From positions 31,877-95,876 of the forward strand of contig NZ_CALXSK010000007.1 of the NCBI RefSeq assembly GCF_944391105.1: a DNA stretch of 64,000 nt. Direction: 5' to 3'. Numbering within the stretch: the first letter of the stretch is position 1; each line of letters opens with the position of its first letter. The notes beneath the pieces were generated by a model. The model worked only from the letters and a program-made list of their open reading frames with translations. It did no database searches and was not told the DNA's origin. Source of the stretch: an uncultured Victivallis sp. (GTDB lineage Bacteria; Verrucomicrobiota; Lentisphaeria; Victivallales; Victivallaceae). A program made the position numbers and the translations under genes. Below are positions 21,604-55,639 of the stretch, piece after piece.

Positions 21604-21630
21604 GAAAAAGGCGGAGCAGAGCGCTCCGCC
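21604..21630 (-). terminator. Intrinsic terminator after the GH2-like gene
   Basis: On the minus strand GGCGGAGC, a 5-nt loop and GCTCCGCC form a perfect 8-bp stem followed by TTTTT. It lies about 20 nt after the hydrolase stop. Confidence 0.88.
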
Positions 21631-21649
21631 GGGAAGCGGCCGCCGGAGA

Positions 21650-24600
21650 TTACCAGCGATAGTAGCGGTACGGATCGTCGGAGGCGATCGGCCGATCCGT
21701 GTAGAAATCGAATCTCCGGGGAATCTTGAACTTGGGAATTCCGAGGATTCCACCGTACCGGTAGGTGTCGTTGCAGAGCACAACCAGCACATTTTTTCCG
21801 GGGCGAAGCCAATCGGAATCCACATGATGGATGCGGGCCGCCTCCCAGTAGTTATCCGGATGGGTCTGTTTGGTGACCTCTCCGAGGAAGTGCCCGTTCA
21901 GCCAGGTCCAGGATTCATCATCAATCGCCCCGAGGAACAGCTCAACATCGCCGGAAGAAGCAAACTCTCCGGGCAGTTCAAATTCCAGCCGATACCAGAA
22001 GAGCCCATCGTATTTCGCCAGCTCTTTGAACTGCACATCGAAATTTCCCGGCACCCGAACCGGACGCCATCTGGAATTCGGGCGGAAATCCGGGTTCATC
22101 CATCCCCGGTCGCGCCCCTCTCCCTCGGGATCGGCGATGCCGATCCAACGATCGTTCGGCAACTCGAATTTGAGATTGCCTTTCACGCCGTCGAACAGAG
22201 CGAAGAGTCCGCTTTCAAAACGTGCTCCGAGATTCGCGGCCAGACGGGAGACGAGGAAAGTCGACCGCCGCCGGGTCGTCCGGTAGTAAAACTCTTCCTC
22301 GTCGAATTTCCACGGCGGAAGCTGGCAACTTACGAAAACACCTTTCCCGTGCCGGACAATTCCGAGAGAACGTCCGCCCGCGGAATCCGGCGCAAAGGCG
22401 TCAAACTGCATTTTCCCGCGCCAGTGCAGTTCCGCGTTGCCGATTCCGGTGAACTCCGGCGTCGCGCGCAGGTTCTCCACTTGATCGGAATAATATCCGC
22501 CGGACTGGAGATGGAATTTTCCGGGCAGCATGGATTCGAGCTCTGCCTGTCCGAATCCGAGAGCGAGTACATTCAGCCCGGCAGCCACCGCGTCAGTCAG
22601 ATCACCCGGCTCTGCGCCCGGGCCGAGCACCAGCAGCGTTTCCGCCGGAGTCGAACCGGAGTCGGCAGAGCGGGGAATGCGCAGCGCGTCGAGCAGAGCG
22701 GCCCCCTCCGAACCGCCCAGATATCGCACATTCCGGGGGGCGGGACCGCGGGCGGAATCGAGTCGCTCCAATGCCCGGCCAAGCAGATCATCGGCCTGCG
22801 GCTCAATTTCCGTACGGCCTGTGACTGCAAGCTGGCAGAACATGATCCGGCCTTTTCCCTCGACAAACTCGACCAGCGGCACATACTGCAGATCGAAACC
22901 GCACTGCAGCAGCGGATTCCAGTTTCCGACCTGCGGCTTTTCAAACAGCACTTCCGTGAGGCTGCCGCGGTTGCCGGCCCGCCAGACCCGGGTGTTGCTG
23001 AAACCGTTCCAGTCCCACTGCGGCGAGGTTGCCTCATAGGGCACAAGCGGAAAGGTTCCCGGCAGCTGAGTCGCACTGCCGCGCCAGTCCCGCAAATCTC
23101 CGCTGAAATCCGACACGGAAAACACTTCACGGAATCCCTGTTCCGTCGTGCGCAGTCCGAGCCGGTTCAGCTCCTGCGCCGGCTGTTCGAGCACAAGGAG
23201 TTTCAGCCCGTTTTCCAGTCGCTGCGACAAATGCAGCGGAAATCCGTGCAGCGCATTGCGCCCGAGGATCAGAATCTCAATCCCGTTCAGATCGCGGTCG
23301 GAATGGACCGTACGGAACGGAATCCCGAGCCGGTTCAAAAGCAGTGAGGCTTTCCCCTCCGGATCGTAGAGACCGACTCTCGAAGCGAGTTTCACCGCAG
23401 CCTGCGCGACAAGATCGACCATGAAACGATCACAGCTTCTCCCCTGTCCCGGGAAATCGAACTCCGCCTCGAGCGCGAACTTCTCCGGTGCTCCGGCGGT
23501 CGGGATGGTGAATTCCACCGGCAGATCGCAGCGGCCCGCGGGAGCGACGACTGTGCTGCCGCTTTTTTCGATTCCGAGGGTCGGAACTCTCCAGCGCCAT
23601 TCGACTTTCGCTTCCCGACGGCTGTCGTTCAAAACCACGAGGGTTTTCCGCACGGTTTCGCCGGGGCGGAAATTGTGTCCCTCTTCGGTGATATCACCGG
23701 ATTTGCCGCCGATCCAGCCGAGAAATTCGGTGAATCCCGCGTGCACCGCCTCGCCGGTCGTATTGAGTTCGTACCTGGCAAAAGGATTGTTGATATACTC
23801 GCCGCGCGGAATCAGCAGATCCGGAACAAGTCCGGGCTGTTTCAGATTCCGGAAGCGATCGGGATTCTGCCGTACGCCCGGACCATCCGCCACCCATTTC
23901 CAGCAGAGGAACTGATCCCACGGCAGGATGCCGGAGATCCCCCTGGCGCGCAACGAGCGGAATACTCTCTGCGCATAATAGGCCCGGACACGGTTCACAT
24001 CCTCGACGCGGTTCATAATGCTGTTTCCGCCGAGGGCGCTGAAAAAGGTCAATTCATTCCCCTTGATCATCTTCTCCTGATGGTCATAGAGTTTCTGTTT
24101 GGCAGGTTCGTCACGGTAGGCTTTCTCACCGAGGATTGCGGCATTGAACTCATTGGTCCACAGGCACTGCAGCCCTTTGGTCGACCAGATGAAAGAGGGA
24201 CCGCGGTAACTCGACCAGCTTGCGACGTGCGGCAGCCCCCATTCAACGAAGACGAGCGGCATCGTGCCGTTTTTCTCCCAGTTTTCGAGCCAGTCGGCCC
24301 GCTCCTGCCGCGGCGCCCAGTTCAAATAGCAGTTCAGGGTATAGACGTCGCCGATGTTGCCTCCCTCATGGTGATAAATCGGGCGGCTCGGATCGAGTTT
24401 CCGGGCGATGTTTTCCGCGAGCACGGCCTGGGCGCGGTTCGCAAGTGCTCCATCCGGCAGAGCCTCTTCGGGTTTATAGGCGGTGCCGATCCGCATCGGA
24501 TTCTGATCGCCGGAGTAACCGGTCGCGTTGTGATTCATGACCAGCATAACGACGCCTGGAACATTCTGAAAACGGCGGATCAGGTGTTCCGCCTGTCTCC

Positions 24601-55535: not shown

Positions 55536-55564
55536 ATTATGACTCATTTCCCGCTAAATGTCAA
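55536..55564 (-). promoter_or_regulatory. Strong sigma70 promoter of the cassette 2 operon
   Basis: Minus strand TTGACA (55564-55559), 17 bp, CATAAT (55541-55536). Transcription would start at about 55530, inside the operator. Confidence 0.8.
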
Positions 55565-55609
55565 GAGGTAATCAAGAAAAAAATAAAAAAAATGCAGTTG
55601 AATTGATTT

Positions 55610-55639
55610 TTACGCAAACAGTTTTCTATCGTTGCGTAA
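55610..55639. promoter_or_regulatory. Inverted repeat enclosing an operator half-site
   Basis: TTACGCAA (55610-55617) and TTGCGTAA (55632-55639) flank 14 bp that contain GTTTTCTA, the half-site of the LacI operator 91 bp away. It has no T run, so a terminator role for the upstream coaC gene is unlikely; an auxiliary operator or second regulator site is possible. Confidence 0.4.

Follow-up and report, generated by a model that had tools for sequence, protein, structure and literature searches.

Two regulator-pseudopilin-hydrolase loci in Victivallis

Within a 64,000-nucleotide stretch of an uncultured Victivallis sp. genome (contig NZ_CALXSK010000007.1, positions 31,877 to 95,876; hereafter the window) lie two gene cassettes, A and B, each comprising a transcriptional regulator, a prepilin-like protein (pseudopilin, hereafter also pilin) and a hydrolase. 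Gene calls, Pfam and NCBIfam matches for the regulators, prepilin leaders and glycoside hydrolase family 2 (GH2) domains located both cassettes where an earlier reading of the letters (the original prediction) had placed them. In cassette A, an XylR-like regulator (27711..28868, + strand), combining an AraC-type helix-turn-helix (HTH) domain (Pfam HTH_18, 3e-20) with a Peripla_BP_3 sensor (1e-17), is divergent from pilin A (26810..27505, - strand), a 231-amino acid pseudopilin with the leader FTLIELLVVIAII and an H193-x10-D204 G205 H206 motif. The AlphaFold2 model of pilin A (predicted local distance difference test score, pLDDT, of 94.5) comprises an N-terminal helix spanning residues 8-58. 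Enzyme A (21650..26791, - strand; start called at 26791) is GH2-like, carries a predicted signal peptide and scores above the Pfam cut-offs for GH2_N, GH2 and GH2_C. The three genes were predicted to form one unit; all three are present, but as regulator A is divergent, the cassette represents a divergent pair and not a single operon.

Cassette B lies entirely on the - strand and consists of a LacI family regulator (54424..55473; Pfam LacI 6e-12, Peripla_BP_3 3e-26), the pilin B reading frame (53583..54302, open to 54389) and enzyme B (50551..53583), a 1010-amino acid clan GH-A-like hydrolase, assigned by profile and predicted fold, with a predicted signal peptide. The proposed position of the pseudopilin directly upstream of the hydrolase was confirmed at both loci, with a gap of 18 nucleotides (nt) between the pilin A stop and the enzyme A start and an overlap of 1 nt between the genes of pilin B and enzyme B. 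Closer examination of pilin B upheld the prepilin leader and its frame, and not an intact gene, since no ATG, GTG or TTG precedes the leader in frame; an ATG with a good ribosome site nearby (about 54373) sits in a different frame. Start-less leaders of this kind were found in six of the 148 pilins examined in this genome. As read by eye from an alignment, the counterpart in the sister species G002 also lacks an in-frame start and contains an internal stop (an in-frame TGA), and the counterpart in G073 possesses an in-frame start. Pilin B may have decayed. The leader region (window 54302-54389, - strand; also L290) is out of frame with the ribosome-site ATG in two species, with the enzyme frame still open.

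Enzyme B, originally described as GH5-like, gave no Pfam match. Its placement in clan GH-A follows from a 48-sequence profile, which finds GH5 mannanases (8gf3, E 7e-7), and from a predicted model (pLDDT 90.5) for which the top rows of a fold search include the clan GH-A-type families GH50, GH5 and GH164. Residues N573-E574 and E717 are invariant across the 48 sequences and, from knowledge of the clan, are the putative catalytic pair.

Enzyme A displays further distinct features. Near its N-terminus (window 25854-26738) we identified an exact tandem duplication, with 435 identical nt at a spacing of 450 nt, which, judged by length and not by alignment, may be absent in several homologues of ~1560 amino acids and present in others of ~1710. 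GH2 enzymes usually carry Asn-Glu at the site where enzyme A has Asn-His-Asn (residues 753-755); an alignment of 121 sequences shows the His in 120 and Glu850 in every one. By its sequence, enzyme A is a GH2-like branch with an apparently altered acid/base position. Beside cassette A, a 153-amino acid frame (window 21024-21485, - strand) fuses a GntR HTH straight to a LacI-type sensor tail and resembles an internally shortened regulator.

Genome-wide pseudopilins and their gene neighbourhoods

Searching the 3.72-Mb genome with the leader region of pilin A yielded 150 matches at E <=0.01 (150 of 161 candidates scored), including 147 at E <=1e-8, and we estimate from these that the genome holds about 147 pseudopilins. 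Stretches around 148 of the 150 matches were taken, with C32:858 and C36:1173 dropped for lack of room downstream at contig ends; the weakest match, C33:21230, lacks a leader motif and probably does not represent a pilin. Genes were called by a custom script, and a crude rule for signal peptides was used identically for test and control sets; seven matches had no called gene, and 143 pilin genes entered the neighbour counts. Intact pilins number 134 of 148, and F+1 and E5 are present in all 134, with a C-terminal H-x8-12-DG motif in 102. The H-x(9-10)-DG class named in the original prediction agrees with pilins A and B by sequence, as both carry H-x10-DG, and not by curated models: neither matches TIGR04294 (H-X9-DG) at E 0.001, although 20 above-cut-off matches occur elsewhere in the genome, and neither reaches the cut-off of DUF1559 (PF07596), with no match for pilin A and 21.7 versus 23.3 bits for pilin B. 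Some homologues do carry PF07596. Fold searches with the pilin domain returned no clear non-pilin relative, which is not evidence for a new fold. The cassette pilins are scattered across many contigs, outside the gsp operon found on contig C6.

The gene downstream of the 143 pilins lies on the same strand within 250 nt in 126 cases, on the opposite strand in eight and farther away in four; three pilins have no downstream neighbour and two are followed by another pilin. Among the 126 next genes, 103 encode a predicted signal, 101 a product of at least 450 amino acids, and 87 both. The combination of signal and size was found in only 33 of 325 non-pilin pairs from the same stretches (Fisher p = 8e-35), 16 of 158 pairs from 14 pilin-free 20-kb stretches (p = 7e-26) and five of 127 upstream neighbours of pilins, for which the signal itself was predicted in 20 of 127. 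These figures replace an earlier count with a stricter pilin definition (signal in 57/96 versus 85/306 controls), mis-called starts now being recovered equally in both sets. By a crude test, just seven of the 126 downstream products are lipoprotein-like.

Upstream, a LacI/GntR/AraC-type regulator, detected by phmmer expansion from five regulators of the window, was identified in 79 of 126 cases compared to three of 223 control genes (p = 9e-41). These 79 regulators comprise 68 on the same strand and 11 that are divergent, and Pfam assigned 34 GntR, 32 LacI and nine AraC proteins among 119 upstream genes. Of 112 pilins flanked by usable genes both upstream and downstream, 64 belong to a full triplet of regulator, pilin and signal-bearing product, such that the unit is repeated at least 64 times. 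The regulator-pseudopilin-exported-protein architecture is established in sequence.

To survey the exported products, the 126 downstream proteins were scanned against Pfam as three sets of 42, with the first 25 families listed of 54, 30 and 47, respectively. The families listed include GH42 (7, 6 and 8 per set), GH39 (6 and 3 in two sets) and GH5 (4 and 2 in two sets), as well as GH2, GH10, GH16, rhamnosidase, pectate-lyase-like and carbohydrate-binding module family 9 (CBM9) domains. As TIM-barrel families overlap and only these first 25 families were listed, the counts do not give a total of carbohydrate-active enzymes (CAZymes). Some downstream genes encode transporters, regulators or housekeeping proteins, and the triplet product is often, though not necessarily always, a likely carbohydrate-cleaving enzyme. 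After some pilins a transporter-like protein takes the place of an enzyme (L152 2777-4690, L058 14259-16169, L107 3277-5577); the start of these proteins resembles a sodium:solute symporter, with one SSF match.

Distribution among related genomes

Among 39 genomes of the GTDB phylum, all those with more than 32 pilins belong to the order of the window. Within this order the layout recurs: predicted signals were found downstream in 20 of 20 cases in G037 (signal and size 15/20 versus 7/41 controls), 15 of 17 in G025 (13/17 versus 3/30) and 17 of 20 in the sister genome G002, where the pilin was not called in four of 30 loci. Regulators lie upstream of 11/21, 12/18 and 15/24 pilins in G037, G025 and G002, respectively; single loci of other relatives gave 1/2 (G009), 2/2 (G011) and 0/1 (G019), with 1/1 and 0/1 at two further loci attributed to G006 and G016 by their rank.

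We also sampled 80 named loci for the signal and size of the downstream product. Loci named as Victivallis or Victivallales combined both features in 7/7 cases versus 2/28 controls, four of the seven being from the cultured strain V. vadensis DSM 14823 (layout present at its loci L239 and L286), with a weaker enrichment among other Lentisphaeria (9/20 versus 8/62); regulators were upstream in 6/10 and 7/21 cases, respectively. Conversely, Verrucomicrobia loci yielded 0/10 for signal and size and 0/27 for regulators, and the out-of-order genome G004, which encodes 32 pseudopilins, yielded 1/6 (versus 4/18 controls) and 0/19, the next gene being on the other strand for eight of 19 pilins. Loci with doubtful titles gave 0/3, other phyla 0/1, and eight planctomycete loci a single called pilin and no usable pair. 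Seven records titled as Klebsiella pneumoniae or Akkermansia muciniphila metagenome-assembled genomes (L231, L243, L248, L251, L263, L264 and L280) encode pseudopilin relatives, and their names look doubtful.

The enrichment of pseudopilin-hydrolase adjacency anticipated across the phylum is thus very strong within the order (this genome, G037, G025, G002 and the Victivallis loci), weaker in other Lentisphaeria, and not seen in G004 or the Verrucomicrobia loci sampled. A phylum-wide pattern was rejected on the basis of the latter two, and the layout is lineage-restricted.

Candidate secretion machinery

The original prediction named the gspE, gspE and gspF genes of the window as part of a type II-like system. 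Outside the cassettes, we found a PilB/GspE-type assembly ATPase (8465..10180, - strand), which scores barely above the cut-offs of both TIGR02538 (677.1 versus 675.65 bits) and TIGR02533 (630.6 versus 630.25 bits), a second GspE/PilB-type ATPase below both (6752..8446, - strand), and a GspF/PilC-type inner-membrane protein (5457..6710, - strand), also below cut-off (GspF 403 versus 424 bits). No secretin match adjoins these genes, and neighbours of the ATPases are pantothenate kinase, mannose-1-phosphate guanylyltransferase and ThiI; on these grounds they were rejected as the partner machine. Elsewhere in the genome, contig C6 carries an operon of the type II secretion system (T2SS) type, comprising genes for a secretin, GspE and GspF, four short pilins (called G, H, I and J after their order and not from models) and a GspK match that is weak and under the cut-off, and contig C20 carries PilM with two secretins.

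Comparison of 14 related in-order genomes revealed an orthologue of the C6 secretin (49-100% identity) in all ten with at least 33 pilins (G000, G002, G009, G011, G006, G016, G019, G031, G025 and G037) and in none of the four with at most 15, namely G028 (15), G022 (5), G034 (5) and G014 (3), in which a secretin is missing or at most 39% identical; G004 gave weak matches only. The genus g3 is mixed, with the orthologue in G016 and G031 and not in G022 and G034. PilM was identified in all 15 genomes checked, pilin-rich and pilin-poor alike, so that the pilin expansion does not track the type IV pilus core. The four genomes that lack the orthologue yielded 22 called pilins, none with a regulator upstream (the pilin was not called in six of 28 loci, and product sizes were cut by 1.5-kb flanks). 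That the expansion follows the T2SS secretin and not pilM supports the proposed type II-like machine, and the likely partner is the remote C6 T2SS rather than the PilB/PilC-like genes of the window.

Proposed function and alternative explanations

Both loci belong to a genome-wide set of cassettes of this type. Taken together, the findings suggest that the pilin of each cassette may serve as a dedicated subunit that plugs into the predicted T2SS, either exporting the enzyme of the gene directly after it or keeping that enzyme at the cell surface. We assign this reading a rough probability of 0.47. A sugar signal sensed by the LacI, GntR or XylR regulator would activate the pilin and enzyme genes together. 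Sec would carry the enzyme over the inner membrane, and the pilin would be processed and then built into a pseudopilus by GspE and GspF of contig C6, with its C-terminal domain contacting the neighbouring enzyme. This might result in release of the enzyme or its tethering at the surface, and the pilin might act as tip, carrier or surface anchor, the roles originally proposed. One T2SS-linked pseudopilin per enzyme is the mechanism that best fits the data, at the level of genomic association. The original suggestion that the pseudopilin is a functional partner of the hydrolase gains support, and its overall interpretation is partly borne out. A bolder version is rather doubtful: a T2SS with more than 100 interchangeable, individually regulated pseudopilins, each acting as adaptor for one enzyme, could outsource substrate recognition such that a shared machine is re-tooled for each sugar.

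A number of observations weigh against a dedicated T2SS subunit. Pilins A and B fall far below the models of known pseudopilins (GspG 28.0 versus 88.85 bits and GspH 26.8 versus 80 bits for pilin A; 30.7 and 24.5 bits for pilin B) and, in a scan of these two pilins, gave no GspI, GspJ or GspK match at E 0.001. Similarity of pilins and their enzymes is weakly correlated (Mantel r 0.12, p 2e-4, n=122), that of pilins and regulators not significantly (r 0.03, p 0.13), and that of enzymes and regulators somewhat more strongly (r 0.16, p 2e-4). At cassette B, the start-less pilin, together with its interruption in the sister species, indicates that dependence of the enzyme on the pilin is not absolute; the G002 enzyme, 92% identical to enzyme B, lies behind the stop-interrupted pilin, and an enzyme can therefore persist without an intact one. 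Homologues of enzyme B have a pilin directly upstream at just 15 of 30 loci, with no room for one at five of the other 15. The single G019 locus and the presumed G016 locus lack an upstream regulator. Where the secretin orthologue is lacking (four genomes), a signal is still predicted for eight of the 12 same-strand genes visible no more than 250 nt from a pilin. Neighbours of the export type thus occur also in genomes that do not have this T2SS, and it is the regulator that is clearly missing from the cassettes there; one of the four, G028, combines its 39%-identical secretin with 15 pilins and no cassette regulators seen. As the cut-off on identity was chosen once the matches were known and the genomes are related, those without the orthologue also being small, the match between secretin and pilin numbers is a correlation and not proof. 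On the other side, the pilin-enzyme correlation, weak as it is, also counts in favour of pairing, and the pilin most similar to a given pilin has a homologous enzyme beside it in 17 of 122 cases compared to 4.4 expected.

Of the alternatives to a T2SS-linked subunit, surface display survives best, and we regard it as unlikely. Here the pilin would be the subunit of a fibre, either of the T2SS-like kind or a type IV pilus, and would hold its enzyme to the outside of the cell in a filament-based analogue of the cellulosome. The same adjacency and co-orientation with regulators would be expected, most downstream proteins appear to lack a lipid anchor of their own by the crude test above (7/126 lipoprotein-like), and the genome has a PilM/secretin cluster and PilB/PilC-like genes; however, as PilM is present in 15 of 15 genomes, type IV pili do not by themselves account for the pilin expansion. 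Somewhat more improbable is that the pilin C-terminal domain binds the polysaccharide cut by the neighbouring enzyme, giving a matched adhesin and enzyme that make no contact. The order regulator-pilin-enzyme would suit such glycan capture, as would the binding of dextran to pili-like fibres in Planctomycetes (PMC5394234).

It is also conceivable, although we consider it a poor prospect, that pilins spread with a module that moves or duplicates and do nothing for the enzyme. Judged by sequence, the cassettes turn over fast between the sister species G000 and G002: for 14 of the 26 G002 pilins that could be read, the pilins collected from the genome under study include no match at 55% identity or above. 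Two species have an impaired pilin B beside an enzyme frame that is still open, and homologues of enzyme B occur also without a visible pilin. Such hitch-hiking is opposed by purifying selection on the sampled pilins (median omega, the ratio of nonsynonymous to synonymous substitution rates, 0.13, n=11), obtained from 30 G002 loci of which four had no pilin and 14 no orthologue, leaving 12 G000-G002 pairs, one of which was left out for a synonymous divergence (dS) <0.02. Also opposed to it are the 134 of 148 pilins that are intact, with F+1 and E5 kept throughout, the position of the pilin ahead of, and not behind, the exported protein (signal in 103/126 versus 20/127), and pilin numbers that track the T2SS secretin. 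Lastly, chance adjacency arising from the sheer number of pilins is refuted by the counts (p 7e-26 to 8e-35 versus controls) and by the lack of enrichment at pilin-bearing Verrucomicrobia loci and in G004.

Recognition of cargo by the T2SS is a long-open question. A lineage with dozens of apparent one-to-one pairings of pseudopilin and enzyme would provide naturally matched partners for tests of recognition. If a dedicated T2SS subunit is the correct reading, the large unexplained pseudopilin families of Lentisphaerota would gain a role, and secreted enzymes could be predicted from gene order.

Comparison with known systems

Searches of open-access full-text literature, with subscription literature mostly outside their reach, returned no description of regulator-pseudopilin-enzyme cassettes in the portions available. 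Like the minor pseudopilins of the T2SS (the GspH-I-J-K tip), the proteins described here have a prepilin leader with F+1 and E5, an N-terminal helix and a pilin-like overall shape, and occur in a genome with a T2SS-type operon that has its own pilin genes. Contrary to minor pseudopilins, which form one set within a gsp operon, they are dispersed over the genome in ~147 copies, of which the majority adjoin a single exported protein and many a single regulator, and neither pilin A nor pilin B passes the cut-off of any GspG-K model.

The DUF1559 (PF07596) and H-X9-DG families of Planctomycetes and relatives share the leader, the C-terminal H-x8-12-DG motif and the many paralogues, differing in that pilins A and B fall under both curated cut-offs. 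R. baltica encodes 74 DUF1559 genes (PMC2754498) and P. limnophila 68 (PMC10632474), in both cases of unknown function, and the available parts of these two accounts give no linkage to enzymes or regulators. Pilus-like structures tied to polysaccharide use are known from the dextran-binding fibres of Planctomycetes; that work is experimental microscopy in another phylum, and the part available describes no gene cassettes (PMC5394234). Type IV pili of Fimbriiglobus are cited in chitin adhesion (PMC11131199). Finally, as in CAZyme gene clusters and polysaccharide utilisation loci, a regulator of a sugar-responsive family adjoins a carbohydrate-active enzyme, XylR-like regulator A with a GH2-like enzyme and a LacI regulator with a GH-A-like one; unlike those systems, a pseudopilin stands between regulator and enzyme, and each unit, in both cassettes of the window, encodes one enzyme.

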